A DNA stretch of 64,000 nucleotides, from contig VKHL01000017.1 in the NCBI GenBank assembly GCA_015146655.1, positions 62,001 through 126,000 on the forward strand, read 5' to 3'. Of this stretch, positions 24,937 through 64,000 are shown in pieces (within the stretch, counting starts at the first letter, position 1; each line of letters begins with the position of its first letter). Below the pieces are notes generated by a model, which did not search any database, had not been told where the DNA came from, and was given only the letters and a program-made list of their open reading frames with translations. The translations under genes were made by a program, and so were the position numbers. This DNA comes from Ochromonas danica (Eukaryota; Sar; Chrysophyceae; Chromulinales; Chromulinaceae).

Positions 24937-26185
24937 TACTGGATACTATGCACCTACTCCTGCCACTGAAGCTTCCGGTCTTTACATGGAGTTAGCCGAT
25001 GGACAGAAAGTGTAGGTTCTTGCCGACGACGATTCCCTGATTATCCTCATGGCGGATGGTGTAGCCAGTTGGCTGGCTCCTGTCTTCGGTCGCCCTCTTT
25101 ATGCTCCTAGCCATGCGTTATTTGCGGATTTGCCTGCTAATGGGCAGGCTTCTCGTAGTTGGTACGGTAAGATGTACCTCCCACCTGCTGATGCGGTGAT
25201 TCCCCACGCTCGTATGCCCTTTGCGCGCTATCATTCTTTGGCAACAAGCAATGCTGCTTCGCTGACCACAGCGACTCAAAATAGTGAAGACCGACTTGTT
25301 GACCTTTTGCCCAGTGCTTGTGGAAGAGACAGCAGTCGCTACTTGGCTGTTGTGCCGGACAGTTGCACTGAGGACACGATCTACTGTTGGATGGGATGTA
25401 TGAGTATCAGCTCTCTGTCATGCGGTAGTGGGCAATTTCCTGTTTGCTGGAACTCTGCTACAAATGTGACTGTTGATGGTGCTGCCCATTGTATGTCAAC
25501 TTGCAAGCCAGCTTGTGGCACCACTCGGGCCCCAACCTTGGCTCCAACCTTGGCTCCTACTGCTGCTCCTACTAATGCCCCAACGCTTAGTCCAACAACT
25601 CGTGTGGCAGATATCGTGAAGTTTGATGCCAGCTTTACAATGACTGTGGCCAATAGCACTGTGGAGCTTACAGATAAAGAGCAACGGGCTGTTAGAAAAG
25701 CAGTGGCTGCTGTCTACAACACCAGTGTGGACAATGTCGTCTATAATGGCTATAAACTTGCCGCCTCTGCGGTTGCTGTAGCCTTAAGAATTCAATCTTC
25801 TGGCAGTATTGTAGTAGCGGTCACCATCAATGTTAACATGGTGAACTACGCTACCTCCACTCCCGAGGAGGTCTACAATGAATATAAGACTACTCTGTCC
25901 ACCGCCGTAGGTTCAGGATCCCTTGTTAACTTTCTCAAATCTGCTGGTACTGAAGTTGGAACGAGCTATTTCAATAACGTTGCTGTTAACAGCGTGGTCA
26001 CTTCTGGTTACGAGGTGGTAGAAGCCGATGATGACGATCATCACGACGAATACCAAGTGACGAAAGGTCAGATGGCGGGTTTGATTGTGGGAACGATCTG
26101 TGGCACTTTAATTCTGATGGGCATCGTTTATGCCTATCTTGCCTATGTGGCAAGAAAGCCTTCTTCAGCTGCTTTGGAGAAGTAA
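24937..26185 (+). pseudogene. 5'-truncated oxygenase copy 3
   Basis: Homology to copies 1 and 2 begins abruptly at their codon 208 or so (actggatactatgcacc), so signal peptide, HxD and promoter are missing. An in-frame TAG replaces the Lys codon of KVKVLADD at about 25013-25015. From 25049 the frame is open for 378 codons through the distal His, Cys-rich patch, a stalk of only about 26 residues, the post-stalk domain, membrane helix and tail. The Cys patch mostly follows copy 1. Just after the stalk there are four replacement changes (S-R, T-K, V-A, C-Y) not found in the others. It cannot encode an active enzyme and may act only as a donor for gene conversion. AATAAA lies at 26211-26216. Confidence 0.85.
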
Positions 26186-29700: not shown

Positions 29701-30061
29701 CTACGGAGCATTCCGAAATCCTGTACCCATGGCGTCGAACACTGTCCCTTCTACCAATGATGATATTGGGGTTGGGCGGCAATCAATTTCGAATTCAAAT
29801 AGTAGTATGATCAACACAAGTGGTCCAGTGCCAGCTAGCAAAATGCAACCCGCAATTAGACAACAACCACAAGAATGGAAAAGAGGGGAAGCGATTGATG
29901 CTGCCAGCTATCTAGCTAGTCTAGCATCAAAAGGTGTCAATCAAAGCGATGAAGTCAACAACGATCGTTCTCTCAAACTGGGAGCGACCTTACGCTCTCT
30001 GTCAACTTCTTTGCCAAACGATATCGATCTTGTTGCACCTGGGAGGTTTAGTAATCGCTGA
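26742..30061 (+). CDS. TPR-repeat protein
   Basis: The spliced gene is 26742..26939 joined to 27005..30061 (65-nt GT-AG intron, phase 0), giving 1084 residues. The N-terminus is acidic (EEEEEEAES). A first set of TPR motifs covers about residues 45-165, for example AYYLRGSSYFKKGQLSQAI and SYYYRGMALTRVENF. A Ser/Asn-rich linker (about 170-300) precedes a long second TPR array (about 307-748), with repeats such as AYVYYNRGITLDHMQHFDKA. I see at least 12 TPRs. The last 330 residues are Ser/Pro/Asn-rich and probably disordered. TPR solenoids are protein-binding scaffolds. No enzyme or membrane part is visible, so the partner and pathway are unknown. Confidence 0.85.
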
Positions 30062-30406: not shown

Positions 30407-33400
30407 ATGTTTAGCTCAGAGGTGATCCTGACCAAGGCTCTTTGTCTTGTGCTTTTTATTCTTCTCGCGGCTCTCTGCCATGAGGCACAAGCGAATAAGC
30501 AACCACTTTACGAGCCTTACACCTTGATCCATCATGACCAATTAGTTGGTCTCCTTACTTTAGACTATCATGTTACCAATGTCATCACAGGCCGTGATCC
30601 TCGATTAAGGTTAGTTACTCTAGACTCCTTGTTTTTGTCTGTTGACTCTGTTTTATGGTGTTTCCTTTGTCTGTGGTCTTAGAAGTGGCGGCTATCAATA
30701 CTCGCTTGATGCGATCAAGAACTATAGTCTGTATACCGACGGCGGGAGCTTTGTCTTGACATCCATCCCTCTCGGTCCGCTGACTTTGCCTCAAGTGACC
30801 ATAGGCGGATGGTTCAAGCCTGACCCATCAGATGGATTGCTCACCGAGCCCAAGTAAGAGCATAAAATTTGCTTCTTCTGTCTACAACGCTGAACCGCTT
30901 CTTCTCTTTCTCTGTAGATATGCTTTGGCTCATTCCTTGGTGCCAGACAATGCGTCGTCTGCTGCAGCCTGTCAACGTGGTCTGGTACTCTTCGCAGATC
31001 GTTGGCACATCTGCTCTGGGACATCTGATTTAATCGACTCTCAAATTGCAGTGGACTATGGTCAATGGAGCTTTGTGGCTATTTCCTACGACCAGTTCAG
31101 TGGGACGGCTAGACTCTTTGTCAATGACGAGACATTTGAATGGTCTGGCCAAATTGAAGCAGACTATCACGTTGCTCATCTTCTTATCGGTGAGGCTCCA
31201 TTAAGCGATAACGCTTTTTCGGAGGACCAGGTTAGTCCAGCAGGCTGGAGAGGACTCATTGACAACATCTTTGTCTATTCGAGGGTTTTGGCGGCCAGTG
31301 AGCTTTCCTTCCTCAATCATCGCGATTTGATCGCTGAGACATATGCCAGTTCATATTCTCCTATAGCAGGAAACAATGGATATGCAGTAGTGGTAACAAA
31401 CACTCAAAGGATCGAGGTTGAGATGGAAGAAAACAAGATTGCGAATGATTTCACCGTGATGTTGTGGTTCCGTATCACTTCTTCCTCTTCAGGCAGTGTT
31501 GCAAATTTAGTGGATAGTGAAGGGCAGTTCACTCTTGCTACAGTAGATAGCCTTAATGGAGGGTCTATGAACCGCCAGTTAGCCTGTGGTTTGGGGAGCA
31601 GTGACGGCAAGGAATGGATATTCTTCCGTGCTGTGCAAATGCCTGCTCTGAACGACTATTGGCAGCATGTGGCAATAGTAGTCAATGATGGAACCTTCAA
31701 GCTATTTCTCAATGCTTCTCTAATTGAAGAAGATTCTTTACCAGATGGAATCTCCTTCATAAGCAATTCTCGACAAATCACTCTGGGTGGCTCAACATCG
31801 TTCTTCAACTTCAATGAGGATAGTAACACTATTGCCTATCAAATGGAGATCGACAACTTCTTGTTCTGTTCTTCTTCGTTAACTCAAGATGAAATTCAAG
31901 TTAAAATGCTTTCCGCATTGTCGCTCTCATCCCCTCCGGATGTAATGCTTCTATTCGATGAAGGCTATGGTTTCTATCCTAATGGCCTCGGAGTGATACG
32001 TGCTCAGGTTTTGCCTGTGCAAGAAGGCCTAGTTTGGACTCCTTCTACTGCTGCCAGCAATTACTTCCTAACCACCTATCAGCAATCACCATTGGAGATT
32101 GTTCTGAATGTTTCGGATTATTTCGAGACTTCTCATGTATTCTCTATAATCCACTTGCCACTTCATGGATATTTGAACACCAGAGAATCTTGCCCTGAAG
32201 GAATCGTTGAGGTTTCTTCTCCTAACCAGTCATTTTCATGTCGATTCTTGATCTATACTCCACAACAGTCATTCTCTGGACTGGATAGATTGGATTATAT
32301 GGTAGTTGATGTCGAGGAACAGGCAGGCCCGATCGTGAGTGTTCCGTTGACTGTGCTACCCAGACCTAGCCCCGAGCAACTGATTTTCGCAGATGGAAGT
32401 ATCTGGATCCAACCGTTGCAGGTAATAGCCCAAGAGGCCGTCGAGAATAAAGCAATATTGTATGGCGGGATTTCCCTGGAATTGGATGGTCAAGCTGAGG
32501 TCGAGTACAGTGAGCCATATTTAAAACCAAGTCCAGGCGCTGATATTGTCTACCCGCAAAGCAGTTCGATCTCTTATGACTCCTTGTCTATCTATGGTCA
32601 AGCTGATGTGGTGATTGATTCCATGCAGGGAATGGGAGTGCGTTGGGTGGGGAATGTTACTAATATCCAATACTCTCTTACTGCTACCATCTCCTCCCAG
32701 GCAAATATCAGCTCACAGAGTAATGTTACTATGCCTTTGCAATTGCAGTTTACATCGATGCCTTACCTAGAGAAAGTTAGCCCAGGTGTAATTTCCACTG
32801 GAGCCAGTATCAATCTCGCGATTGAAGGAAGTTCATTTGGTGATGACATCATTGGCTGTGCTTTAGGAGGCAAAATACTCCCATATGAAAGAGTTGGAAG
32901 TGAGTTCATAAACTGCAGTTTGAGTAATTTGAATGGGACACTGACTGTTGGAAGTTACGATCTCTTCGTGGTTACAAAGAGTGGAAATCCCAGCAATGCT
33001 CTTGCGATACAAATTGTTGACCCGGTCATTCCTCTCAGCGCAAACCTCTCTTATGTAGATGATACAGTGACATATGTTTTAGCAACTATTCTCATTGAAA
33101 ATGTGACAGAACTGGACATGCTGTATTGTTCGGTTGAAGGAGCTTATTTTGTTGCCAAGAAGATTGATGCAGTATATCTACAGTGCCATATTCCTCTTGA
33201 TACCATTCTCAACAAACAAGTAGTCCAGCTTGGCATCACTGTGAATACCTTGGAGGTGGCGTCCCAGCTGATTGATGTTGCTGTGATGGATGTGGGTAAC
33301 TTCATCTTGGCCGAACCCACAGTATTATTTAATGTTAGTGGTGTTCAACCTGTTACGCTGAGAGGAACATTCAATGTCTTGTCCAATCATACCATTACAT

Positions 33401-36400
33401 GCCGTCTAGATAAGATGTTCTATTTTGAAGGAAGAGTGATTTCTACTGATCGTATGTTGTGTTTGATTACTATGATCTCCTCGTGGGTTCCCCAACATCT
33501 GATGCCCATTGAAGTTTCTATTGATAGCAATTCTTATCTTCGAACAGGGTTGTTTCTTCAATTGCAAAGCGAGTTAGAGCTTTATTCTATTCAGCCTTGG
33601 TTGGTGTTTGTTGGGCAAGACTATCCTCTCACGCTTATGGGGAATGGCTTTGATGTGGCAACATCTTATTTGTGTGTCTTCAATAACACTTGGACTTCGC
33701 AAGCATTGATCAAGTCAAGGGAACTGGCTTCATGTAATTTACCATCAGCTATTACCTCGGCTGGTAGCATCACTCTGTCATTGAACATATCTGGTGTCGA
33801 TGGGCAGTCTGAATGGCGAGCCAGTGTAGATCCATTGGTTTTGTCGATTCTTCCTCAGCCTGTCGTTTCCACCGTCTTTCCCACCAGCTTTTTCCAAGGA
33901 GAATTATATTATGTGAAGGTATTAGGTGACTATCTTTATGAATCTTCTATTAATAGTTGCTTGTGGGCCGATTCGCTTGGAAATGTGATGGTTTCCAACT
34001 ATACTGCTATGTCATCAACAAAGGGTTACTGTTCCTTGATTGACAACCAACCAGTTGGCCGATATGAGCTATATTTGAGTCTTACTTCAACTTCTAATCA
34101 GGTTATTGGAGTTTCGCAAGTTAGTATCTTAGCAGTTCCTACCCTTCAATCTTTGATGCCATCTAATGGCTTTCATTTCGAGAGTACGGATATTATGCTA
34201 ACTGGTTCGTTTCCCACCTATGAAGGTGCATTGTATTGCACTTTTGATGATATCTTCGTGGTAGCCACCTATGTAAATACCAGCATTATCACATGCACAG
34301 CTCCTCTCATAGGGGACCTATTTAACGTTTATCCAAAGTCGAGTGCTTTGAATGCCTTCACTGTGTCGATCGGTTTGTCATACGGACCGACGAGAATCGC
34401 CTCAAATCTCACCTATACTTATTACCCATCACCTGTTCTTGACACAATTTTCCCCGTAGGTGGTCTTCTCAGTGGTGGAAATGTGGTCACCATTAAATGG
34501 CATGTTTCTACCAGCACTATGCCTCTCTTGGATTGTTTGTTTGGTTCCCAAGTCATCATTGGCTACTTTGTAACACCAGGGGTGGTTGAATGTATTGTTC
34601 CCCCAGCGGGTATTTCGGGAAAGGTGAACATATCTCTTACCACCAAAGGACAGGTTAATCCCAGAATGGCCAATCGACACTTGACTTATGAATATTGGCA
34701 ACCAGTCCAAATCCTTGCGGTATCGCCAACAGTTCTTGTAGCAAATAATACTCAATCTGTGGCTGTCAGTTTGCAAAACTATCAATTGGCAGGTTATTAT
34801 TGCATTGTGAATGGCACAACACAAGGACCATATTCTCTTTCATCGTCCATTTTGATCTGCCCTTTGGACCTATCCATTACGTTCCCACAAGGTGATGTCT
34901 TGACATTGTCAGTTAGCAGGAATGGTGTGGATATTGAAGATTCTGTTCAAGTTTCTGTTATCAATCAACTATCAATAGTTTCTGTGGACAAAAACTATAC
35001 ATGGGCATTCAAGAATAGCTCCATTTCCTTAACAGTTGTAAACGATGTCTCATTGTCTCTTGTCGATGGTTCACAATTACTCTGCGTTGCCAATGATGAT
35101 CAATATGTTCTAGCTTCTCTTAAACGTGATACCAACGGATCAACTGCTGTTGTTTCGTGTGCATTCAACTCATTTGAGCCAGGCACTTATACGATTGACT
35201 TGACCTATTCAGGATTGACGATCTTGGCGAATGGAGAAAGAATTCTGGTTGAATCTGTTCCTCCAGCAACTTCCTTGCGAAGTGTTATTCCTTCGAAAAT
35301 TGTTGCTACTCAAACGGAGCGTTTAGTACTGGCATTTGATCAAAATCTCGATCCTGGGATCGTTGAATATGTGCTATGTGCCCTTGATAATGTCGTTTAT
35401 GCCGCTCCGACTATCTTGGATGATTTTCACATGAGCTGCGACGTTGCCTCTTCTGTCACTGGGCTAGTATCTTTGCAGTTTGCTTTGCCAGATGGAGACT
35501 GTTGGTCAATTGCGACCATTCAAGCTGTGGCAGACAACATTAACAGTTCCATTGTTGCCTTTCCCCAATTGTTTGCTGCTGGGCAAAGCTCTTATATTAC
35601 TTTTATGGGCGAATTCCAGGTGGGAAGAAAATATGTATGCCGCTATGAACAAATACCTGCGATTGGTACATTCGTATCTTCAGTGGCGGAAATACTGCAG
35701 GGGAGCATCGTATTCCCATTCCCAGACCAGCTCCAGTTGGGAACAGCGAATGTTACATTATTAGAAAACGATTTCGAGTTGTATAGCAGCACCGTACAAA
35801 TCTTCGAAGATGCTGGATATCAAATAACTTTTCAACCAAGACGATTAAGTGTGTTCGGAGGATGGTTTTCGGTGAATGTTAGTGGCACAGAGGATAATAA
35901 CAGTCTCTTCTCAGGAATCAATGGCGACTTTTCACCATGTATTTCTGTATTTCTTGGGGGTTATTCTTGCTTGTTTCCTCAAACTGCGAGTGGTATTTAC
36001 AACCTCCTTTTCTCTAGAAATGGACAAGATCCTCTCAATCAAAATCTCACCATTGAAATAGTTGATTATCCCACCATCCAAACTGCTACCCCTCTCTTCG
36101 GTCCCGTGGAAGGCGGTACCATTGTCCATATCGTAGGAGACAACTTCCAATCTGAAGGCATGAGCTGCCGCTTTGGTGAGGTGGTGGTAGATGCTTTCGT
36201 CAGCTCTTCAACACTCATGAGTTGTGTGAGTCCGAAGAGGAATGATGCAGGTCAGCGGAAGTTATTAGTCTCATCGAATGGCTATCAGTATGTGGATAGT
36301 TTGATGAGATTCAGCTATGTTCCTTATCCAGTCATAACGTCTATCTCTCCTTCACATGGTCCTGAGACTGGGGGAACGGAAGTAATTCTCAATGGAGTTG

Positions 36401-39400
36401 ACAGAGCTGCTGCTAGTTCCTTGTATTGTAAATTCGGAGATTATTCAGGAGCAGTTAGTGCATATCTCAACACTGCTAATGAAATTATTTGTGTTACTCC
36501 TTCGCAGTTTCCTGAAAATGCTTCACTGCTGATCTCTTTGGATGGTCAGGCATTTGCTCAATCAGGTTGGACATTTTCATACGATCCACTCCCTTCTGTC
36601 GTGACTTTGTATCCTTCAAGTGGCATATGCGACGGCGGGAGCAAAGTTACTGTGTTTGGCTCCAATTTCTTCTCATCTCCCGATTTAAGATGTCGTTTTG
36701 GGGATTCGATTGTTGCGGCATCGTTTATCAAGATTAGCGCCATCCAGTGCTTAACACCTCCAGCTGACGACTGTGATAATGCCAACGTTGTGCAATTCTC
36801 AGTCAGCCTCAATGGCGTAGACTTCGTGCCACAATCTGTGCAGTTTTCATATGTTTCCTCTGTTGTTAGTGCGAATGTTTTCCCGCAAAGGTTGTTTGCG
36901 AATGTCAGCACACCCGTATTGATTACTGGAGCAGGAAATTCAACAACTTCGTCCATCGCATATTGTTCTTTTGAGAGTACAGTTATTTCTGTTTCTCCTC
37001 AAGATGCAGGGTTGCAGTGCAGCTCCCCCTCATTCGGCACTATTGGGACAACAACGTTACGGCTTTTGGCTTCGGATATGTCGATAATTGATGAAGTCTT
37101 CCTTGATGTTGTGCCTATGCCATTGATTACATCAATATCTCCGCTGGTGGTATCCCAAAATGGTGGTAGAATTACTATCGAAGGAGATTATTTCCTGTAC
37201 TCTGATGACTTCGAATGTATCATTGGCCAAGTGTCTGCTCCAGCTACTGTTATTTCATCGAAGATAATACGATGCGACTTACCTTTCCAGTCTCCCGGTT
37301 TAGTGAATATTCAGCTTGCTATTCCGAAAGCAGACGTTACTATCTCAGCTCCTCATCCTCTTTCTGTTGCAGTGAGGAGTATTGTGGATGATATTAGTCC
37401 ACAAAGAATATTATGGGGTATTGAAGGCTATCTGACCATATTTTCTCAAACTCCCAATGCTTTTGGTGGAGGCTTTTGTATTTTTAGTTACAACTTCGAA
37501 CCTGTATTTAGTCCGATCGAGATACTAGCTGGTCTTCAAGTCTGCTATATTCCGCGACTTATTGACATCGGCAATCAAACCGTATTTATAACAGATCAAC
37601 AACGCGCCGACAAGACAGTCTTCAGCATTGAAATAGTTGATTATCCCACCATCCAAACTGCTACCCCTCTCTTCGGTCCCGTGGAAGGCGGTACCATTGT
37701 CCATATCGTAGGAGACAACTTCCAATCTGAAGGCATGAGCTGCCGCTTTGGTGAGGTGGTGGTAGATGCTTTCGTCAGCTCTTCAACACTCATGAGTTGT
37801 GTGAGTCCGAAGAGGAATGATGCAGGTCAGCGGAAGTTATCAGTCTCATCGAATGGCTATCAGTATGTGGATAGTTTGATGAGATTCAACTATGTTCCTT
37901 ATCCAGTCATAACGTCTATCTCTCCTTCACGTGGTCCTGAGACTGGGGGAACGGACGTTAGACTTCAAGGAGTGTTTTCGGGCGAGGTGGGTATATTGTA
38001 CTGCATGTTTGATGATCCTTCTGCAATTGCTGTTTGTGATCTTGAAAGCGACTTTGAAGCTAGATGTGTCGCACCAAGTCGTCCACCCGGAGACAGTGTT
38101 ATTTCAATCAGCTATGATGGAGAGAATTTCGTGACTCAACAGTGGACCTTCAGCTTCTATCCTCTTGAGTTAATATATTCAGTATCACCACCACTGCTTT
38201 TAAGTGGCTTGCCATCCGTCGTGTCGATAGCAGGATCGGGTTTTATAAATACAACTACTCTAACATGTAGAATCGGTGGTTACTCTGGTGATGTTTCATT
38301 TATTAGTCCTTCATTGGTCAATTGCAGTATTCCAGGGGTGCCTATTGTTGGCATAGTTCCTATTGAGATATCGAACAATGGACTTGATTGGTCCACATGG
38401 CGTGAAGGAAAGGTGGTATTTTATGAGCCCGTCTATGTTAAGCGAGTGTTTCCCACATTGATATCTTCAAATCACAGCACGGAGTTAATGGTTGAGATGT
38501 TCCAACTGCCTTCGTCGATGACCGGAAAGCAAGTGCTTTGCCAATTTGATGCTATTGAGCAGACCCTGGCTACATTCATAAACAACGATACGATTAAATG
38601 CAGTACACCTGTCGGCCTGCAAGGTCGTGTTGATTTTGCATTGGTGATTGATGGCAATGTGATCACAACACAAGTTCTCCAGCTAGTATTTACTAATGCA
38701 TACCCTTCAACACTCTCTCCTTCTTCAGGACCAGAGACGGGAGGTTGGGATGTTGAGTTTGACTTATTGGCAGCGTCTGCGGTTACTTCTGTTGCTTGTC
38801 GAATCTCGAACATCGTTATAATGGCTCGGTATTTCAACGGGAGTGTGAGATGTGAAGTTCCTTCTTTGGATATTGGAATGCAGGCGGTAGAGGCATCATA
38901 TAACAACAAGGGATATTTCCTCGTAGGCTATATATCTATCTCTGCAGCCATTCAAGTGTACTCGATCTATCCCAACGTTATCGTTCGTGATCTTGCTCCT
39001 CAAGAGGTAACCGTGAAGGGCGCATTTCCTGATAATGTTACATTATGTTGTGAATTAGACGGTATCATTCAGCCCGTTGACTCTTATAACTCATCACAGC
39101 TTCAATGTTCAGTCATTCCCACAGAAAATGCCATTGCTGGACAAGGAAGTATTTCCTTGCGAATTGTTCAGTGTGATGCTTATTCCGACTACTACAAAGC
39201 ACTGACCTCGAATCCTCAGGAGTTTTCAACCCTTTATCTTTCTGATGCAGGATATGGCAGTTTGGCAGTCCCGTCCTCCTTTCTGATAGGCATTACTAAG
39301 ACTGTCTTCATAAATGGCTACTTCTCTGTGAGCAACAAATTGAGATATCAATGTGTCGCGCTTCTATTAGATGGCCAAGAGTGGGTTTCCAGTGGACGAA

Positions 39401-42400
39401 TGCTGTCTCAGAATATTTTGGAATGCAACCTGCCAACCAATATTACTAAAGAGCAGAGGATTCTCCTCACTGTTCGCTGCCAGCCCAACAACATCTCAGT
39501 TTACCAAGTCGAAACCAGTTTCCATCTACCACCAAGCACAAGCGCTATTTATCCGCTGGAATCGTTTGAGGATAGCGAGACGCTCTTTCATATTGGTCTG
39601 AACAATTTTACGACGCTCAACGAAGTGAGCTGCAAGTTTGGTTCTTCGAAGAATATTAAAGGAGCAATTGTTGCAGTACCTAATGGACTGGAATTACTTT
39701 GCTCTGCACCTGTTCTGTTGCCTGGCACTCATGAAGTGTATCTCACATTTAACAATTATGACTACCTGACTGCTGGGACGATAACTATCTTCCAACACCA
39801 ACCAATCAAACAAGTTGTGCCTGAAGTAGTGCTGAAGTATTCATCTTTTGTTAATGTGAGTGGTAATTTTAGTGCGTTCAATACTGCTCAAGCTATTTGC
39901 TGTTATTTCGATGGCGAGGTAACAACCGCTGTTTTGAGTGCCGACTTGGTCAACTGTGCTATTCCTGTCTCTTGGAAGCACATGCGCTTTATGAGCGGAC
40001 GAGCATTTGATCTGTTATTGGGTTGTTCAGTTCCTTTTGGATTAAATCAAACAATCTGGTTCGCCCCGGAACTGGCAATAAGTCACAGTCCTGTTAGAGG
40101 ACCTATTGAAGGTGGAACATTGGTTTCTATTCATGGTTTGCCGTTGCCTTCTTTGTCATCACAGGTTATCATCTGTAGATTTGGCGATAGCACAACATTT
40201 GCAGTTCTTGTGGATTATAATTCGGATACCGTGATTTGTAAAGCTCCTCAAGTGAGTGAAGTGCAATTTGTCTCAGTTTCTGTCAGTACAGATGGTGGAA
40301 ATACTTTCTATGACTCTAGCAATGGATTTATGTACACGACATTGAAAGTCAAGGCTGTCTATCCACTTGTGGTCGTTGAAAGCAACTTGAGCTTCCCTGT
40401 TTATTTTGAACTGGAGCAATTCCCTTTTCCAACCAACTTGACCTCGTCTGAAGGAACATGTAGAGTTGGTAAGTCGACCTTTGAGCTGACCATGACTGAT
40501 CGAAGAAGGATGCTTTGCATTGTTTCGAACGTTGAACCTGGCAATTATCAAGTGGCTGTGAGCTTGAATAATCAAGATTATGATGTGATTGATGGAACAT
40601 CGCTGGTTGTAATTTCCGCACCACAAGTGCTCTCTGTCGAGCCATCAGAACTCTTTGCTGATCCAAATCAACAAGTAGTCTCAATAGTTCTCTATTCGAT
40701 TGAACTTGTTAATCTCTTTCAGCAAGGATCTTTCCCATTATATTGCGAAATCAATAGTCAGAGATCTGTGGCTATAGCAACTCATGACAACAGTTCGATC
40801 CTCAATGTTCAATGCATTGCTTCTTTTCCTGATGCAGGGGGATATGCTGTGAAGTTGTTATCAAATCCTGTCACTGGATCCCTGCTATCACAGCCTGCAA
40901 CTGTTCTTGCCATTGAACCTTTCTTCGTGGAGAAGATCTCACCAACTATTATTATTCAGTCCACTCCCATAGCTGTGTTTGGGAACTTTTCAAGAGACAA
41001 CGGCTTGCTTTGTAGCTTTTCGGTTATCAACAATGAATTAACGCAATCGAAGGATGTGCTACAAGCTGTTCCCTCCTTTGCCAATAATTCGTTGGTAATA
41101 TGCAACCCTGAATCATTCTTTCCCCTTTGGTCTACTTCTGAAATCCAACATATTCTAATTGGGGTTGGATTGAAAAACACAGTGCCGATATTCAGCCAAG
41201 GATTTACTGTACTTCCTACAATCTCAATTGATCGTTTGACTTCGCAGGAACCTGTGGTGATCATAAACAGTGGTGTGAACATAACGGCTATTGGTGAGAA
41301 CTTCCCGTTGTCGCTTAAAAGCTACTGCGCCTTCGATGACAACCTATTTGATGCCTTGGTACTCAATGAAAAGGAAGTTATGTGTATGATTACGGAGTTT
41401 AAGAATCCCGGATTGTATCAATTGTACTTCTATTTTGGGAATAGCCTCATCCCATCAAGCACGGAGTTGATGGTGACTGTGAAGCCCCAACCTGTTGTTA
41501 CGACAACTCTTCCTTTACGACAATGCCAACAGAATTCTTTCTCTTCACTTTTCGTTGAAGGAAGGGGATTCCTTGCAGTGAAGGATAGCATTCAGTGTGT
41601 TCTAGGCGGGACTGTTTTGAGTCCTATAGAAGTCACGGATGGACAGGTTTTATGTCCTTGCCCTTCTGTTGATGTCTCTGAGGTAGAGTTACAGCTTAAA
41701 GTAGAGAACTGTGATGCAGTGCTCTATGCGAGCCTAGTGCAAGTGATGAAGTCTCCTCGATTTACAGTTCGCGGCTCACCGTTTATATTGGTAGGCACAC
41801 CAACAAATGTTATAGTCGAGCTTGATCAGGAGTTGACCACAACCAATCTTATCGTCTACCAATTCCTGAATTCCTCTGTGATCCAAACTCCATCAGCTGC
41901 AGTCCTTGTTGATTCGCGTTCCATTGTCTGCTCGATTCAATGCAATTCACCTGGAAAGATTTCTTGGCAATTGTCATTAGATGGTGGTGACTCTTATTTC
42001 TTACTGCCTGATCTCACTTGTTTGCAGCAACTACAAATTCTCTCGATTGATCGCTCCGAAGTTTTTGATAGTGGTAATTCTCAAATCGTTGTGGGCGTTG
42101 CAAACGAAGTTTCCAGTGATCTAATAGAGGATGGAGTTTTCTGCAGTTTTGGTGGAGGCTTCAATGAAACAAAGGCAATTGTACTTCCTAATATTCGCTC
42201 AAGCGGCAGCACATTGCGTTTCAAATGTTTCTCTCCTCCTCTACATGTGGGTGATTCTTCTCTGAGCATTCGCGTCGGTTCGGTGATTACTGAACCTTTG
42301 ACCATCTCAGTCATTCCATTGCCAGTTTTAGAAGAACAAGGAGAGGTTGTGACTTCCAGATGGTCTCCCAGCAATCTGATCATCAATCTTAGAGCTCTTC

Positions 42401-54400: not shown

Positions 54401-57400
54401 TGATGATTTGTAAAGCCCCTCCTTTAGAACGCGTGCCTGAGATTCAAACTTTATCTATTAGTTTGATGCCCAGTACTCCTTCTATTTATGATATTGTAGC
54501 AACTTCAGACAAGGCTGTTGGTCCTACTTACTCCATACAAACGTATGCCTCATCATTTAGCCCACAAGATCATTCATTCGTCTTTTCTGTTCCAGATGTA
54601 GATGAGATCCAAGAGCTTGTGGTGGCAGCTGATTTTGCTCCTCGACCTGTTGCACGATTAAAATTCCAAAATACTGGGCGGATGAAGGATATTCAAGCGG
54701 TTGAAACTTTTGCTTCATATCAACAAGAAATTCAAGCCGTTTATATTCGTGCCCCTTTCTCATCCTATTATGACCAATATTCTGAAGTACAGCGTGTGAT
54801 CGCAAACATTCAAGCAGTGAACATTACGTTAACGATTGATGGACGCTCTGCACGCTTTTTGTCATCATACAGTGTGACTTCGCTGCAGAATATCTTTTTG
54901 AATTCCTGGGGTAGTTATGGACAAGACCTTGTGGTAGATTATGCGGCTCATAGTGATTATAATGAATGGATCTTTCACTTTTCTTCTGCTTTGGGGAATG
55001 TTCCTCAAGTAACAGGCACTGCAAATGGAGGCATTCCCGTCAATACAACGGTGTTATCAGAAGGTGGATTTGCGGAGATTCAAGCAGTTCATCTTGTTCA
55101 CTCGGGCAGTGGTGTATGGGGTACCGTACGGCTTGCCTTGAAAGCTAATGATTACTCACCCAGCATCTTTTGTAATGCTTCCAAAGAGACAATCAAGGAG
55201 ACACTTGAGCAAGTTGCCTCCATTGGTAAAGTATCCGTCAATGTTTCCTATGCATATAACAGTTATACCAATCTGTTCGATGCAGTCATTTGGAATATCA
55301 CTTTCTTGCAAGCAGCGGGAGATTTATCGCCATTAAGCATAAGAACGTCAGGATTCGATGGTGCTGTGTTTATAACAACAGTGAGAAACGGTACGACCGT
55401 CCCCTTATCTGGTTCATACACGTTGAGTATTGGCAGTCAAACTACAGCTGATATTCCCATTACAGCATCTGGATCTGATGTTGCGGCAGCTTTAAATGCA
55501 CTTCCCTACTTGAGCGGAGTTACAGTGACACGCTATGATGTGATTAACAATGGTGCTATGATGTTGGTGAAATTTGATCCTACTGCAGGTAACATTGATG
55601 AGCTGGTGATAGATTCCAGTAAACTGTCCGCTACTCTTCCGAACACTCAGATCATGACATACCAAGATGGATTGTTAGTGCATGGCAAGTTTATCTTATC
55701 GCTGGTCAACACCACTGGCAATTTCAACACCTCACCTATATCATTCGATGCTTCTGCTGAAACCATGCAAGCAGTCCTGGAGGGGTACTTCCCCCAACTG
55801 GCACCACTTCAGGTAGTTCGCACATCCAAGGATATTGTCAACACATACATATGGACAATCGATTTTCCATATAGTGCAGGTCAGGTACCATTACTGGAGG
55901 GTAATTTTGCTGGACTTGGTGGTCCATCTGCGTATGGAAATGTTTATCAAATCCAACAAGGCCAAGTTCCTACTGTGCAGCAGATTTCTACCACTGCCTC
56001 CAGTCGCCTCTCTGGATACTTTACTTTATCGTTTGAAGGTCACACAACTTATGAGCTTGCTCATGATGCCACAAGTGATGATGTCCAACTTGCACTGGAA
56101 AAGCTGCCAAGTATTGGGGAGATTATTGTGACTCGCACGTCCACTTCTGTGGTCGATAGCGCAACTTGGCCACATGTTGATAAATCTTGGGAGTACATTC
56201 CTCTCCATCTTCGCACAAATCAGGAGCTGTTCATTTATGATCGACAATCGTATGACTGGCAAGTAACTTTCTTATCTAGGTCAGGAAAGCTGCCTCTCAT
56301 TACTACTTGTTGCGATGAGTGGACATCGCCTTCCGAAGATGCTACTTTGAGGTCTGCTTTCTCTCACGATTCACAAATTATCGTGACTAAAGTGACTGCT
56401 GGCACAATGGACAATCTTGAAGGGACAGTTTCGATTGGAGTCAATGATGTTTTCACCGCCTACTTTGATATTGATGCTAAAAATACAACGATTGCAGCGG
56501 CATTGAAGACCATTGGATATGATACTTCAGTGACTGTTGCGGAGATTGACGAGAATGGACTCTATACGTATGATATTGACTTCACAAGCAGTGATCTACC
56601 ATTTTTGGATACTGCGTTAGCTCTCAATTTGTCTATCGACTTGAGTAGCGTTACTCCCACGGTAGCGACAACCTTGATAAGTTTTGATTGGCTTGTCGAC
56701 CCTCCTCAGCATCAATTACAGTTCATTGGGGTTACTCAGAAGACGTCATCCATCGCCTGCACTTTTGCAGATGCATCAGGAAGCACTCATACGCTAAGTC
56801 TCCCAAGGAATCCTTCGCTTGTTGATGTCCGTAACGCTGTGTTGAGTTTATCATCTCAGCTCGGATACATATATGCATTTGACGCTACTGATTGGGTTGA
56901 AGAGAACTATTCACCGACACTTCATGGTAGTTTGTCAGTGTATGGTATACTGTTTGTTGATCTTGTCGACACAGTCTCGACACTATCGTGTTCAGGAGCA
57001 AATACCGTCAACTATCAAAATACATCCTTATCTACATTGTCGGGATCATTTGCGATTGAGCGTGTGGATGGACTGGGTAACGTGGTGGCAGCGTCTTCTT
57101 CGATACTGTGGAATGCCAGCGCAACTGTGATCAAGCAAGCCTTTGACTCTGTGTATGGTACCAATGCAGTACAAGTCGCTGCTGGTTCATCAATTAATGC
57201 AACTTATCGCACTTGGATGATAACATTTTCTGGGAACACTGTTGGCGGCGATGTGGCACTTCCTAACGTGAACATTGACAGATTGAATGGTACGAATGCA
57301 TTCGCGGCAATTGAGCAAATAGTTCAAGGATCGTATCCGACAGGAAATGTGACTGTTTTCTTTGATAACAAGAATATAACATTGGATATCAATAGTAGGA

Positions 57401-60400
57401 GGTTGGATATTGAAAGTGCCTTGAGTCCTTTGTTTGAAGGCCATATGCTAAACGTTAGTGTATTAGAGGCTGGATCAAACAATGGCGATATTTCTTGGAA
57501 TTTAGTTTATCGTCTTGGAACTCTCACATCTCCCGCCACAATGACTGTTGGTAACAGCGATGTTACTGTGACTACAACAATACAGACGGCTGGTACCACA
57601 GATATGAGTGGATCTTTTGAAGTGCAGTATGCAACAACGGCGGGCCATGTTGGTTACGTTGTAATCCCATTTGATGCTTCTGCATATACTGTCGGACAGC
57701 TTCTTCATAGCTCTGATCCATCAGCTTTCTATGGCTTGCTAGTGCGGACAACTCCCATGCAAGAGAATGACCAAAAGCAGTGGAATATCACATTAAGTCA
57801 TAATTCAAGTGTGACGAGCCTATCTATGTACTCCGTAGCGAATCTGTTTGGAAGCGGTGCTTCGGCAACTGTCAGTAAAGTTCGAAATGGGGTAAATGGA
57901 TTAAATGGCAGCTTTGTGCTGGATCTAAATATTGCATCTTCCACAGTGAAAGTTAATATGAAAGCGAATGAAACAGCCATGATTGCAGCTCTTCGATCAA
58001 TTACCGGCAATGTATCTTATCTCACTGTCGAGAAGTTGATAGACCGTCTTGATATGGCGGTATGGCGACTGACTTTCGATTCTTTACGATTTGCTTTAGT
58101 AGATCCTCAGATTATCTTGAGTAACGTTGTTTCATTGAGTGGGCACAGTAATGTCAGTGTTCGACAGATTCAATATGGTGCAATGTTACCCTATTACAAC
58201 ATCACAACATCTGTGCATCATGTGGTTACTCTTGGTTCATTTCCCATGTTGAACATTACGACATTCTCTTCCAAGACATCTTCCTATGAGATTGAACAAG
58301 ATATAGAATCCACAGGTCTCTTCGAATCAGCACGTATCGAGGTATTGAAAGGAACGGATCATTTCACAGTGTTGATGCTATTGGTTGCTAATGGTAGCTC
58401 TCCTCTCGACCTCTTTTATCGTCTGAACCACTCCATAGCTATTCCATTGAACTCCACAAACCCTCTGAGAGCTGTAAATACATCATCAGGTGGAATGCTT
58501 CAGCTTGGGTTTGCTGATGACGAAGCGTGTATTGAGAATATTGGAGGAGTACATTGTGGTTGGCAATGGGGCGTTGAGAAAAGTGAACCGCTCTCGATCC
58601 CGACCACTTCTAGCCAGCTTCAAGAGAATGTGGAGATCCTTCGAGATGTTAATTCAGTGAGAGTTTCAGAGAACTGGTACTCCTTCGTGAGTTCCACAAG
58701 ACGTTTGCAATCTTCTTCTGATGGTAATCCATTAGCCCAATATCAGTATGATATAACCTTTGATGAATCCTCAGTTAATTCTACGAAGAGTGCAGTTTCC
58801 AGTTTGAACGAATTCTTATGGGCGCCTGAAGTGGATAGCATTCGATTTTCTGATCCAACTGTCATATCGTATGATCCCCCGCTTCTCACTGCTTACACCT
58901 CCAAATTAGCTCCAGGATGGGTTGCTACTGTGTCTCAGAAGCAAACTCCCAGTGCACCTAATGTCAATCAAACGGTCTCTGTTTCTGTCTCTTTCAATGG
59001 ACAAGACTACTCTCAACAACCTATAACTTTCTCCTACTTACCCGCTCTTACTGTCACAGCAGTTAGCCCAACCCATGGACCCAATAAAGGAGGCACAGAA
59101 GTGCTTGTTTATGGAAAAGGATTTGTAAAGTCTTCTCAGCTGCAATGCAAGTTTGGCAGCGGCATCAATGCAGTCGTCTATGCAAGCCATTTCTTCAACG
59201 AGTCCACTATCATTTGTATCACTCCTCCAAATTTCTTTGACAGCATTGTGATTGTGGCAGTTTCCAATAATGGTGCTTTTAATGACGAGGATGAAAATAC
59301 ACCACATGTGTATTATACCTATGATATGCCCGTGGTTATAGATACTATCACTCCTCCCCAAGGCCGTGTTTCTGGTAATTTCTCTGTGGTAGTTAGTGGA
59401 GGACCTTTCGTGAATACTGATGAGCTGAGATGCAAGTTTGGCTTAATTGCAGTACAAGCATTCTTCTTATCTCCAGGATCTATTCGTTGCTTTGCACCCC
59501 CGCATCCTGCTGGATTGTATCCTTTGGAGGTTTCTCTGAATGATCAAGACTATACAATGAGTCGATCCACATTCTTCTTCTATGCGGACGAAGCGCTTAG
59601 TAGAATTAATCCTGTGTCAGGACCTGCAATAGCAGCTGGCACTAAGGTTAGTGTCTACGGCAGAGGATTTGTGAACTCTACATTATTGACCTGCAGGTTT
59701 GGAGGAACAGTTAGTCCTGGTGTATTCGTCAGCTCGAATTACATTATCTGCCCCACCCCACCTTTAGATTTGGTAGCAAGCGGAGGATTGAAATCGTCTG
59801 CTTTGAGTGAACAATTCAATCGTTATCCTGATCCCTATTATAGCAGTTTAGGCTTGACAGGCAAAGCTGCCTACCGCCTTTTCCCCACCGCTCACATTTA
59901 TCCACTTTACAAACAACGCTTGGTAACGGTTGAAGTCAGTAATAACAATCAGGACTATACTTATAGCGGAATTAGCTTCTTGTATCAAGCTGATGCTTAT
60001 GTCACTTCCATTCTACCCAATACTGGCCAAGTGAATGCTCGTGTTCCAATCGTGGTGAAAGGAAATAACTTTGTCAACTCGACTTCACTTCGTTGTCGAG
60101 TCGGAGAGTATGTTTCCACACCCACTTTCCTCTCTCCAGATCAAATATTGTGCTTCACAGCTGAGACTCCTCTCGTTACTTCAGATGCAGGTTATACAAG
60201 AGATCGAAACACCTTTTCCGCAAACACACCAGAGGCTCGCTATACCGATACCTCTCCTTATGGTGTTAGCCCGAATGTTGTTTACGTGGAAGTGTCTAAC
60301 AATGGTCAAGATTATACCACGGACCGCAAAACATTCACTTTCAATCAAAAATGTACTGCGGGTTATTATTGTCCACAATTGAATAATATTACTTGTCCAG

Positions 60401-63400
60401 CAGGCACGTATTGTCCAGGAGAGTTCAACACCAATTATACTCTCTGTCCAGCGGGTACATACAATCCAATGCCGGGACAAGCTCAATGCTTTCGCTGCCC
60501 TGTTGGCTATATATGTCCTGAAGAAGGAATGCAAGTCCCTCGTATTTGCCCCCCAGGTTTTGTCTGTGAGGTCACTGGTATCATCATTGCTGGTAATCCT
60601 TGTCCTGCTGGTCATTATTGCCTCGAAGGAACAGCAACGTCAGCTACAACTTGCGGTCATCCAGACCTATCTGCAGAGCTATACCCGATCATGTCTCATG
60701 GAGAGCAGCCGTTCACATTGCGCAAGAATCGCATTGCTCAAGGTCAACAATTGTTCTTGGGAGCGCGTAATACTGGTTGTTGGACAAATGCTACTGACGA
60801 TTATGGGCTACAAGCGTCTGATCAACCTGCTCATTTCTGGATGGAGAAGCACCTGTTGCCGTTAGCGCTAGATTCACCTTTCGTGCCATTACGTGGCCGA
60901 TTCTGTCTGGATGATAGCTGCTTAAAGCTAGCAGATTATGACGATTATCAAGCAACTGATTATGCATTTGATTATTCGGCGCATAGTTTTAGACTACGCA
61001 GACCCATTCCTTGCCCTTCGGGAACGTATTGCCATCCCGGCACTGGTGTTAGTGTGGTCAATATGAAGAATTTCACTACTCCTCAGCCTTGCTATGAGAG
61101 CATGTACTGTCCAGAAGGTAGTGCTGATCCTACAGGCTCTGGTGAATGTCCGCGAGGCTTCTATTGCCCTTTTGGTTCAAAGATTGCCTGTCCACCTGGA
61201 ACATACTGTCCCAGAGATGGACATTGGGATCCTTTCCCATGTCCTCCAGGTACTTTTTCTGCCCAATTGGGTAGTGAGAGATGTACGCAATGCCCTCGAG
61301 GATTTATTTGTCCTGGATTTGGACGTGTTGCTCCGGCCATTTGCCCGCCTGGTTTTGTTTGTTCTAAGACGGGACTCAGAGCTCCCAACCTTCGCTGTCC
61401 TGCGGGTTTCTATTGTCCAAACGGCACTATGACGGTTGATCCTTTCCGAAATGATACAACATTGAGGCCTTACCCATGTTCTCCGGGAACCTATTGCTTG
61501 CCCGGCGTGGGCTACAATGCAGTCAAGACTGGAGATTTCACCCATGCACAGTATTGCACGGAAGGTTTCTATTGTGGATCGGCCTCCAAGAATCCTCGAG
61601 GTGATGGATTGTGTCCTAAAGGTGAGTAATTTATCTTTCATTACCACCATTCGAGTTGGTTTGAGTCTTTAACATTGTTTTTAATCAGGATTCATTTGTC
61701 CCCTGGGTACTGCTGCTCCTCAACCTGCCCCTGCGGGATCGTATGCTGAGCTGAGGGGAACTATCACAGCAGCCAAATGTCTTCCCGGATATTACGCGCC
61801 AACTATTGAATCCACTGTTTGTTATCCTTGTCCACCTGGTACAGCATGTGAAAGCGAAGGCATGTCAATCGCCAGTCTGTGCGCTCCCGGTACTTATCGC
61901 TCTACCCTTGAAGAAGATGGCGTTCCTTGTGTATCATGCCCGCAAGGGTTTTGGTCTAAGAACTACGGCTTGAGAGAGAAAGGCGAGTGCATCAAATGTC
62001 CAGTCGGTACCGTTTGTTCCGTGGATGGAATGACCTTGCCATGCTCTCATGATGACTTGCCCAGCTCTTTTGAGCCTATTTTCAATTATAATGGTGTTCC
62101 TACTAAAGTCTATTTATATCCTAGTTATCAAAAGAAGACGTACTATAATTATCTGGCCTGTCTCCAACTCAACGATGGCTATACTGCCGGGGAAATGGAT
62201 CCTTTCAAGCAGACTTACTTCTTCGGTGAATTAATACCACCATATATTGACGTTCTGGGACGCGGACCAAACTTTCGAACAACAGATAACACTCATTTGA
62301 AATATCAAACATCTGCCCAGTGCTATTATAACTCACAACGATTTGGAAGTGCTTTATATCAGCGTATTGCTGAGTACTATGGCCCTCAATACAACATTCA
62401 ATCTCAGACTCCTTATCAAGGCTACTCTCAAATCTTTACTAATGGAACTGCCTACTATGATGGCTTCTTTGGTCCAGGGTCCCTGTATATCGATCTACCT
62501 AAGGCAAGACACTTCGAACCATCTTACAACTGCACCAAAGGCTTCCGTCTCATGAATGAAAGTAAAACAGCCTATGACAGCAACGGAGCAACTACTACCG
62601 TGTACACTAGCTCAACGTTTGATCCTGCAGGCTCATCTCGAACCATCACAATGGGAGTTGACCAACTGTATCCAGGCACATGTGAAGCTGACTTTATTTG
62701 CTACTTTTCTGTTGGTAATTCTTCTTCTGCGGAAGGAACGGCTTGTACGGAAGGCTATGTTTGCGATGAAGCTACGAACTCAACGTTTAGTTTGCTCTAT
62801 CTCTGCAGAGCTGGTTATGTTTGTGATACAGGGACGACTCCGGAAACCTCGCTTGAAGCGACCATGGGACAGTTTAGAAAGCTTTGCCCTCCAGGCTACG
62901 TCTGTAACGACGGCACAACTCTTCAAAATGCTTATCGTACTTTATGTCCAGTGGGATATTTCTGTCCCACAGGAACAGGTGATTACTATGTGGGAACGAT
63001 GGCTAATGACGGTGCGAATCGAGATCTGAATGCATCCATTATCAATCCGTCTCTTAACAAGCATCATGTAGTTTACTTGGTGAACGATGATGTGCGAGTA
63101 ATGTCGGACGAAGAAGTGACTTGTTTGCAAGGTATTGATAGTGACCTGCGCTTGCGCTATCAGAAGGAATGGCTGCCAGAAGGCGAAGATCTCAACAATA
63201 AGTACCTTCTCTATTTACGCAGCCATGTGGTCGGTCGACTGCCTTATCAGAATGATCCTGTTCTCACTGGACATGATGATGGGTTGTACTACCGCCCAAA
63301 GGATATCAACTTGGCTATCAAAAGCGACCTCACATGCGCACGCGATGGCAAATGGGGACTTATTCAATCAGTGATTAATCGCAAGGAATGTGATTGTGAG

Positions 63401-64000
63401 AACTTCTTTTATGTTGTTGCAGCTGTCTATCGATTGTGGAAGTGCCATAGTGATGGAGAATTAGATGATCTTGGAATAGCAGCTATTTCGCGTCCTTATT
63501 ATGGGGGCCGAGACTATTGGTTCGAGAGAATTACTCGCACTTCTGTCATGTGTGTGTTTCCACATGGAAACAACAGTTATTTCAATTTGACCCATGGCTA
63601 TATCCCTACTAACCACAGCAATCCAGCCATAGGACATTACAATTATCCAGGTCTGTTGAATGTGACTCAAGGTATCGAGTTGCAGCTTACTTGGACAGTA
63701 GCCAAGAATTATACGGCTTACTCTTCATTGAAAACTGATGTTGTCACTGAGTATGATAGTGAATACAGTGCTCTGACCAGTACCTCACCAACTCGCTCTA
63801 ACATTGACCCTTACGTCTTCGACCTCTATAATGCGATCATGTTATTGGAGCAGTATGGTGAGAAGTTGGAGCAATTGATCTGGTTGGTGACTGGCGTGAA
63901 TGCTACTGGTGGGACCGCAATGGTTCCTGGTCGGTACGATATGTGCGAATGTCAAAACCTATTCAAATGCCCCAATGGAACTACAAGCTCTACTGGTGCG
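30407..64000 (+). CDS. giant secreted IPT/TIG and GCC2/GCC3 surface protein, 3' end outside window
   Basis: Exons are 30407..30609, 30683..30853, 30918..61621 and 61689 to beyond 64000. All introns are GT-AG (73, 64 and 67 nt) and phases agree, giving 11,130 codons in the window with the frame still open. Exon 3 alone is 30,704 bp. The start ATG 30407 begins a signal peptide (about 1-33). Next come two LamG/concanavalin-like domains (about 60-460), a cadherin-like repeat (about 510-610) and 56 IPT/TIG repeats (about 737-5830). Then beta modules led by E-I/V-Q motifs alternate with short IPT/TIG groups (about 5830-9930), followed by GCC2/GCC3-type Cys repeats from 9934. N-glycosylation sequons are frequent throughout. 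No membrane helix is seen so far; one may lie downstream. It is probably a cell-surface or wall-associated adhesive or structural protein. Function is inferred from domains only. Confidence 0.9.
30700..31950 (+). other. LamG/concanavalin-like domains of giant protein
   Basis: Two domains of about 190 residues. Hallmarks are WSFVAISYDQFSGTARLFVN with GLIDNIFVYSRVL in the first, and FTVMLWFRI, YWQHVAIVVNDGTFKLFLN and EIDNFLFCSSSLTQDEI in the second. Such domains bind glycans or proteins. Confidence 0.75.
36051..36380 (+). repeat. 330-bp near-identical tile, copy 1
   Basis: Matches 37626-37955 with only three differences that I can find (about 99%). It spans one IPT/TIG repeat and the start of the next. 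The offset is exactly 1575 bp (525 codons). Confidence 0.95.
37626..37955 (+). repeat. 330-bp near-identical tile, copy 2
   Basis: Partner of 36051-36380. The sequences on both sides are still homologous as IPT/TIG repeats but strongly diverged. Confidence 0.95.
48040..51095 (+). other. EIQ-led beta modules, block A
   Basis: The block opens with short EIQ repeats (REIQAVRV, PEIQALEI, REIQRITT, SEIQRFEL, REIQQIHI). About nine modules of 80-110 residues follow. Each module has G-x-F-x-L-x-x-G, a polar stretch, L-x-x-L or similar, then a W-x-I-T-F strand and a G-D-x-P-type turn. I know similar EVQ/EIQ modules from protist giant proteins but no established domain name. Confidence 0.65.
51110..51955 (+). 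other. IPT/TIG group, 3 repeats
   Basis: Starts at VEGVFPFIGDVRGGTAVFIFG, ILSITPSIGHILSQ and VYSIDPALGTTIGGTNVVING. Confidence 0.8.
51960..53685 (+). other. EIQ-led beta modules, block B
   Basis: About five modules, with TEVQVLEIYEV, PEVQLFHLYV and SEVQKVSYTS leaders, and strands such as YIWTVTFLDLIGDRP and RSWSITFPPELGDAA. Confidence 0.65.
53690..54430 (+). other. IPT/TIG group, 3 repeats
   Basis: Starts at IESIHPSFGPHEGGTLITLTV, TASIFPTGGIVAGHT and ITKIDPIRGSADEFTDIKIIG. Confidence 0.8.
54430..58830 (+). other. EIQ-led beta modules, block C
   Basis: The longest block. It opens with several EIQ leaders (PEIQTLSI, DEIQELVV, KDIQAVET, QEIQAVYI, SEVQRVIA, AEIQAVHL), then about thirteen modules with strands such as NEWIFHFSSALGNVP, YIWTIDFPYSAGQVP and RTWMITFSG. 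Confidence 0.65.
59035..60340 (+). other. IPT/TIG group, 4 repeats
   Basis: Starts at VTAVSPTHGPNKGGTEVLVYG, IDTITPPQGRVSGNF, LSRINPVSGPAIAAGTKVSVYG and VTSILPNTGQVNARV. Each has the C-x-F-G or C-R-V-G middle. Confidence 0.85.
60345..62045 (+). other. GCC2/GCC3-type Cys-rich repeats
   Basis: Many CPAGTYCP, CPPGFVC and CPRGFYCPFG units of the ephrin-receptor-like GCC2/GCC3 type, stabilised by disulfides. The block is split by the 67-nt intron at 61622-61688. Similar units recur until about 62965 (CTEGYVCDE, CRAGYVCDTG, CPVGYFCPTG). The last 330 codons of the window have no domain I recognise. Confidence 0.8.

Follow-up and report, generated by a model that had tools for sequence, protein, structure and literature searches.

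A giant TIG-array gene of Ochromonas danica carries a second repeated module related to phage virion proteins and long bacterial proteins

We analyzed a stretch of 64,000 nucleotides (nt) from the chrysophyte Ochromonas danica (GenBank assembly GCA_015146655.1, contig VKHL01000017.1, positions 62,001 to 126,000 of the forward strand), referred to below as the window, for which the sequence-only reading had proposed one gene of more than 33 kilobases (kb) encoding a secreted surface fibre. This gene, hereafter the giant gene, lies on the plus strand. When its four exons (30407-30609, 30683-30853, 30918-61621 and 61689-64000) are spliced in phase, they give 33,390 coding bases (11,130 residues) with no stop, and the frame is still open at the window end, position 64000. 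Translation starts at the ATG at 30407, which follows an in-frame stop at 30374 with no ATG in between. The three introns, at 30610-30682 (73 nt), 30854-30917 (64 nt) and 61622-61688 (67 nt), all have GT-AG borders and lengths one above a multiple of three. Retention of intron 1 or intron 2 would bring a stop at codon 92 or 126, and the open frame of exon 3, taken from stop to stop, runs only as far as 61629, which lies in intron 3. The proposed model of one four-exon gene was thereby reproduced. Exon 3 spans 30,704 nt. Its true frame has no stop in 10,234 codons, as the earlier reading had stated for its 30.7-kb exon, whereas each of the other five frames has 414-673 stops and a longest open run of 75-216 codons. 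Under a first-order Markov model, the chance of a stop-free exon of this kind is about 10^-231.

The order of domains in the encoded protein is a signal-like peptide, two LamG domains, 56 TIG modules, nine copies of a second module, three TIG, five of the second module, three TIG, eleven of the second module, four TIG with two partial ones, a cysteine-rich region from residue 9935, and a C-terminus with no assigned domain. Exon 1 encodes the start codon and a signal-peptide-like hydrophobic N-terminus (residues 1 to about 29), and exon 2 probably encodes the start of the first LamG domain, a weaker stretch recognized by eye and given no coordinates. The remaining LamG sequence, the TIG and second-module arrays, and most of the cysteine-rich region are in exon 3, with the rest of that region and the C-terminus in exon 4. 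The N-terminus is the sole strong hydrophobic stretch, its Kyte-Doolittle 19-residue mean peaking at 2.77 in the segment that begins at residue 6. In the rest of the 11,130 residues no transmembrane-like stretch was found except a borderline point at residue 2185 (1.87), the only other value above 1.8. The protein contains 191 N-x-S/T sequons, against 100 +/- 10 expected from 200 shuffles. Pfam Laminin_G_3 matched two stretches with an expectation value (E) of 1.2e-22 and 81.1 bits (cut-off 27.6), as predicted earlier for LamG; the score was 72 bits with exon 3 alone and rose to 81.1 when exons 1 and 2 were joined. The second Laminin_G_3 domain occupies 31405-31899 (residues 288-452), and the first lies upstream of it, where Laminin_G_2 covers residues 158-244 at 0.0043, under its cut-off.

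Most of the protein consists of TIG modules. Scanned in two 5000-residue pieces, it matched Pfam TIG (PF01833) at E of 3e-130 and 2.5e-111 (425 and 364.3 bits; cut-off 20.9) in 18 and 16 stretches. A TIG profile trained on the protein itself detected 64 modules at domain E < 0.01, and none at this threshold in 20 shuffles, the reversed protein, or 10 other open reading frames of the window. At the looser E < 0.1, beyond the E < 0.01 of the control run, it detected 68, so the earlier count of 66 by eye was close. The first array, at 32758-48165 (residues 739-5874), holds 56 consecutive modules. Four are weak, with a domain E of 0.0004 to 0.02, and the mean start-to-start spacing is 93 residues over 55 starts, the weak module at residue 841 being left out. 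Three smaller blocks follow, at 51118-52017 (three modules, residues 6859-7158), 53701-54552 (three, residues 7720-8003) and 58927-60363 (four full and two partial, residues 9462-9940). The 68 modules average only 19% pairwise identity, yet the frame never breaks, in line with the selection for the reading frame that had been claimed. A proline is kept in 95% of the modules and two cysteines in 89% and 91%, and this conserved pair probably forms a disulphide in each bead. The TIG regions also match the ectodomains of Met and plexins (best E 1.5e-10). Within the first array, a 300-nt direct repeat is present at 36047-36346, covering the TIG module at residue 1842, and again 1575 nt downstream at 37622-37921. 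The copies are 99% identical, with three differences that all fall on codon position 2 and all change the residue, and the module pair is 98% identical. This repeat appears to stem from recent internal copying or conversion that took in one TIG module and the beginning of the next.

The second module is about 100 residues long and was found in 24 copies at domain E < 0.01 with a self-trained profile, and in none of the same shuffled, reversed and reading-frame controls at that threshold. The copies form three arrays, at 48358-51030 (nine copies, residues 5939-6829), 52009-53643 (five, residues 7156-7700) and 54820-58836 (eleven, residues 8093-9431, the first and last weak with domain E of 0.01 and 0.0003). 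Many copies are preceded by an E-V/I-Q strand, and the consensus then runs through G-x-F-x-L, T-x-x-I-x-x-N-A-S, and a short helix ending in A-L-x-x-L-P to V-x-V, W-x-I-T-F, and a G-D-x-P-x-L turn. AlphaFold2 predicted a beta-beta-alpha-beta-beta-beta-beta fold with a confidence score (pLDDT) of 86.8, or 89.3 with a deeper alignment. Over these arrays Pfam gave nothing above cut-off (best DUF2470 at 0.18 and HMA at 0.25) and NCBIfam nothing near cut-off; the second module is a family with no curated model in the Pfam and NCBIfam libraries searched. Alignments for the comparisons that follow were selective. The giant-only alignment A1 used 19 of 23 giant copies and left out four, alignment A3 left out nine of the 23 giant copies and three of seven phage modules, and the bacterial alignment A5 kept 27 modules of 43 candidates and left out 16. 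Just ahead of two of the arrays, at 48060-48330 (residues 5840-5924) and 54430-54800 (residues 7966-8081), an E-I/V-Q motif recurs at intervals of 14 to 55 residues, which gives the impression that only the first strand of the module was multiplied.

Relatives of the second module were found in phage virions. Against all 177,635 PDB sequences, the giant-only profile had as its top match the tail-tip cage protein gp23 of mycobacteriophage Bxb1 (E 3.7e-28), followed by the Bxb1 capsid protein (6.6e-4). In the opposite direction, a phage-only profile built from seven modules of five phages matched the giant at a sequence E of 9e-76 in a 32-sequence set, picking out 16 modules at domain E < 0.1, all inside the three arrays; the best of the controls (20 shuffles, the reversed protein and 10 other reading frames) reached 0.26. 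Profile-profile comparison of the giant and phage alignments gave E 1.3e-16 with the E-V-Q strand in register, and whole-protein tail-sheath and major-tail families of PHROGs matched the module at 3.5e-9 and 8.2e-9. A tblastn search of 50,697 phage records with four giant modules retrieved 27, at a best E of just 0.01; these were annotated tail proteins of 18 Mycobacterium and nine Gordonia phages, RefSeq and GenBank twins being counted apart. Foldseek searches of PDB with the predicted structure ranked Bxb1 and Patience virion proteins, a cyanophage sheath, and the flagellar cap FliD at the top, with TM-scores of 0.34-0.70 over the Bxb1 chains listed, gp23 being the best. Among predicted viral proteins, seven matched below 0.001, and the four that carry names are two phage tail proteins and two entries of one uncharacterized phage protein; the best TM-score, 0.73, belonged to a mycobacteriophage minor tail protein. 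The Foldseek ranking and best TM-scores, rather than its E-values, agree with the sequence result. No viral-contig relatives were found for exon 4 or a four-module piece using exact peptide patterns only, and a two-module piece had no match in plasmids.

The module is also present in bacteria. A genome scan that used just two exact peptide patterns, drawn from three phage modules, yielded 49 loci, of which 31 are Planctomycetota by title, eight Actinomycetota, five Pseudomonadota and five others. The giant-only profile matched open reading frames in 44 of these loci, and the giant+phage profile in 48, in 49 frames. Fifteen of these frames are at least 3,000 residues long and 17 fall below 1,000, many being clipped by the locus end. 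The highest copy number, 20, was reached both in a Gemmataceae frame (L024, at least 5,500 residues) and in a frame from a Moraxellaceae metagenome-assembled genome (L031, at least 4,597 residues). A bacteria-only profile of the 27 modules matched the giant at 2.7e-98 in the 32-sequence set, again with 16 modules at domain E < 0.1 (best control 0.017), and Bxb1 gp23 at 1.5e-53, and giant and bacterial alignments matched each other at 4.3e-18. Scanned singly, the 27 modules shared no Pfam family, with 11 families appearing in one or two members each at a best of 8.2e-4; the best HMA match among bacterial copies, 0.0012, was below cut-off. Two long frames were scanned for other domains: L031 has RTX and DUF4347, and L029 has autotransporter-associated repeats. 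No TIG was detected in any of the 49 loci with the giant's profile at E <= 0.001, so the pairing of TIG with the second module is special to the giant gene among what was seen. Judged by reciprocal profile matches and a common predicted fold, the second module of the giant is the module of these phages and bacteria. The earlier reading had rightly noticed beta modules and had missed their identity, a family with no curated model that is common to phage virions and long bacterial proteins.

Inspection of the bacterial occurrences gave further information on distribution. A wide spread in Planctomycetota was ruled out; among 59 genomes of the phylum of G001, the Gemmataceae metagenome-assembled genome that is the source of L024, only three, including G001 itself, reached E <= 1e-8, with matching frames as long as 6,507 residues, so the module is patchy within that phylum. 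The best blastp hit of 23 giant modules was bacterial for 14, another giant module for six, a phage for two, and a bacterial/giant tie for one, a tally that gives no direction of transfer because the bacterial set (128 modules) exceeds those of the giant (23) and the phages (seven). A module tree is likewise unreliable, since identity is 20-30% over 100 residues. Five Solirubrobacter frames of 1,388-1,512 residues (L017, L019, L023, L037 and L053) have one copy each, and in L017, the only one of the five inspected, it interrupts what looks by eye like sugar-dehydrogenase-type sequence. In a planctomycete frame of 959 residues (L009, 7662-10538), modules flank a segment that appears LamG-like by eye, echoing the pairing of LamG and module in the giant.

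The region downstream of the last TIG block is rich in cysteine. Its repeats extend over 60346-62050 (residues 9935 to about 10480), split by intron 3, and 41 cysteines fall within residues 10001-10500. The Cys repeats noted earlier are therefore present; the GCC2_GCC3 label given to them was not supported, as this family was not listed at E <= 1. The nearest Pfam family, Ephrin_rec_like (0.0019, 18.4 bits), was below its cut-off of 23.1. The Pfam search suggested in the sequence-only reading thus placed TIG and Laminin_G_3 above cut-off and left out GCC2_GCC3. The cysteine-rich part of exon 4 matched the Chlamydomonas mastigoneme protein MST1 at 2.8e-11. Used as a single query, the cysteine block of 555 residues had no match at E <= 1, so the exon 4 match may reflect shared cysteine-rich composition, and since it depends on how the query is cut, we do not claim membership in MST1.

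Other genes lie upstream of the giant gene. Immediately before it is a gene for a TPR-rich protein (27005-30061; 10 stretches of Pfam TPR_1). Farther upstream are three tandem gene copies (18163-20529, 21950-24361 and 25016-26185) with translations largely identical by eye. They are set apart mainly by how long their Pro-Thr-rich repeat (Pfam PT) is, and each ends in a transmembrane-like segment. The third copy has no N-terminal part in this frame. PT-repeat genes together with short introns would suit a stramenopile.

On the basis of these features, we consider it fairly probable that the giant is a secreted, glycosylated, beaded surface or flagellar fibre serving adhesion or spacing. The architecture proposed earlier for a secreted fibre agrees with the hydrophobic stretch confined to the N-terminus, the excess of sequons, and the TIG cysteines. 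The product would be a heavily N-glycosylated fibre of more than 11,130 residues, with the lectin-like LamG domains presumably at its free distal N-terminal tip, a shaft of about 66 probably disulphide-bearing TIG modules and about 24 modules of bacterial/phage type, and a cysteine-rich region leading towards an anchor or further domains outside the window. A module of this kind measures about 4 nm head to tail. Some 90 beads stacked end to end as a flexible rod would then reach about 0.35-0.4 micrometre, if the extended shape that we infer is correct. Such a fibre could reach out from the cell surface or the flagellum to bind or space, as a cell-surface adhesin or as the subunit of a hair-like filament. 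Several points weigh against this reading. The gene runs past 64000, so that the end bearing the anchor is outside the window; transcript, protein and location are predictions from the DNA sequence; the adhesion role rests on analogy; Foldseek E-values against PDB were never below 0.001; and a codon score favoured the true frame of exon 3 in just 81 of 101 windows, the other 20 favouring a minus-strand frame.

The last of these points bears on whether the reading has fused several genes into one 30-kb frame, separate transcripts sharing one open frame. The codon score was trained on six other open reading frames of the window and applied in 101 overlapping 600-nt windows. The codon usage of the giant correlates with that of the training set at r = 0.80, and 19 of the 20 minus-strand-favouring windows start within 34819-42919 or 60319-60919. 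Because of these 20 windows, codon usage supports the frame less strongly than the stop count does, and the windows, with a gene model drawn from DNA, are what can be said for separate genes. Against them stand the absence of any stop in 10,234 codons and the module arrays succeeding each other through exon 3, and we regard fusion as highly improbable. A single gene could still encode a membrane receptor or adhesion molecule of the fibrocystin-L or plexin type, with its transmembrane and cytosolic signalling parts past the window. Proteins of the fibrocystin-L (PKHD1L1) type combine TIG with PA14, G8, PbH1 and a transmembrane helix. The TIG arrays do resemble Met and plexin ectodomains, and the gene does go on past the window end; yet Pfam scans of the available part of the giant revealed no plexin, G8 or PA14 domain and no parallel beta-helix family (PbH1), and no clear transmembrane stretch follows the N-terminus apart from the one borderline point. 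The available sequence thus lacks the marks of the fibrocystin-L type other than TIG, and a receptor of either type seems unlikely.

It is to a similar degree unlikely, in our view, that the giant is a component of stramenopile tubular mastigonemes or their filaments, such as a lateral or terminal filament or a hair linker. This idea draws on the MST1 match of exon 4, MST1 being reported to have nine Ig-like domains and a Cys-rich domain (PMC11015965), and on three chains of PDB entry 9ufe that match second-module profiles. Chain OCM6 scored 0.21 with the giant-only, 0.0016 with the giant+phage, 0.13 with the bacteria-only, and 0.074 with the all-module profile; chain BA, named 'Tubular mastigoneme protein', scored 0.042 with the bacteria-only and 0.03 with the all-module profile and was listed with those two only; and OCM5 scored 0.15 with the bacteria-only profile alone. 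The matched parts are about residues 213-306 of BA, 214-306 of OCM5 and 238-332 of OCM6. The OCM6 and BA alignments start at the first core strand, extend past the I-T-F strand and cover most of the module, and with the giant+phage profile OCM6 stood at 0.0016 against 0.049 for the next unrelated match. However, unrelated decoys scored as well as the 9ufe chains or better, namely designed armadillo repeats at 0.003-0.008 (14-15 residues, bacteria-only profile) and RBM3 at 0.014 (all-module profile), with ribosomal protein L23 nearby at 0.054-0.078 (giant+phage and all-module profiles). The 9ufe matches are not independent, because the profiles have rows in common and the chains are probably relatives of one another. 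That several chains of one mastigoneme entry emerged from 177,635 sequences is suggestive, and the similarity of the module to them is marginal. Moreover, the entry was absent from the best 50 Foldseek matches in a PDB copy to April 2026, the block of cysteine repeats taken alone matched nothing at E <= 1, and the mastigoneme proteins compared for size are far smaller, at 64 kDa for one of them (PMC12223298) and 1,987 residues for the MST1 chain. Judging by the OCM names, 9ufe may come from Ochromonas; a literature search found no paper reporting it.

A secreted fibre remains our preferred reading of the giant. Its second module was most probably passed by lateral transfer between bacteria, phages and eukaryotes as a part of surface structures. 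The contexts of the module that we examined are virion proteins and bacterial frames, and the two frames scanned have RTX, DUF4347 or autotransporter-associated repeats, so its role is read most economically as that of a spacer outside the cell or a weak binder of glycans. Other small surface domains of phage Douge, described as Ig-like, bind mycobacterial host glycans (PMC13033339); by analogy, glycan binding is a testable property of the second module, for which Douge offers no proof. We further propose, tentatively and at less than even confidence, that one unnamed extracellular module of about 100 residues is common to phage capsids and tails, long bacterial surface proteins, the eukaryotic giant fibre and stramenopile tubular mastigonemes, so that eukaryotic flagellar or surface hairs would be built in part from a bacterial or viral component. 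Tubular mastigonemes are a defining trait of stramenopiles, a major eukaryotic group. If the proposal is true, a single gene connects the surfaces of phage virions with long bacterial proteins and with the surface fibres of eukaryotes in a testable way, annotation of the module could be extended to other giant proteins whose make-up is unknown, and sequence and structure could be used to test directly how these mastigonemes originated. Similar sequence may occur in other protist giant proteins. In addition, the giant gene illustrates modular growth clearly, its 30.7-kb exon containing a 300-nt internal copy of apparently recent origin.

The earlier reading had ranked the protein among the largest known for a microbial eukaryote. 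Its size alone is not exceptional and was rejected as a novelty, because a UniProtKB survey reports more than 41,000 proteins over 5,000 residues (PMC11573180). Searching by title or the start of the abstract, with most subscription papers outside the search, we found no paper on a giant TIG gene of protists. The giant TIG protein is itself of a known kind; what sets it apart is the second module, unnamed in the curated libraries searched, shared with phages and bacteria, and possibly present in tubular mastigonemes.

Comparison with known systems places these parts in context. The TIG arrays of Met, plexins and fibrocystin-L resemble those of the giant in belonging to Pfam TIG and in the conserved cysteine pair, and for Met and plexins in ectodomain sequence, whereas the giant has about 66 copies alternating with a second, unrelated module. 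MST1 shares with the giant the succession of tandem beta domains and a cysteine-rich region, and the tubular mastigoneme proteins of 9ufe may contain a single copy of the second module; these proteins differ in their far smaller size. Fibrous mastigonemes of the MST1 type are marked by a growth-factor-receptor Cys-rich domain together with a proline-rich helix, and a proline-rich stretch was not noticed in the translation of the giant. Long bacterial proteins, mostly of Planctomycetota, carry the second module in tandem as the giant does, up to 20 copies, but in the company of DUF4347 and RTX (L031) or autotransporter-associated repeats (L029) instead of TIG. Domains of Bxb1 gp23, capsid and tail tube (PDB 9d93 and 9d9w) and of actinophage tail proteins appear, by profile and predicted fold, to be the same module of about 100 residues, sharing the EVQ strand at the front, the start of the helix at N-A-S/T and the W-x-ITF strand. 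The phage proteins examined contain one to about three full copies, whereas the giant assembles about 24 in an intron-bearing eukaryotic gene.

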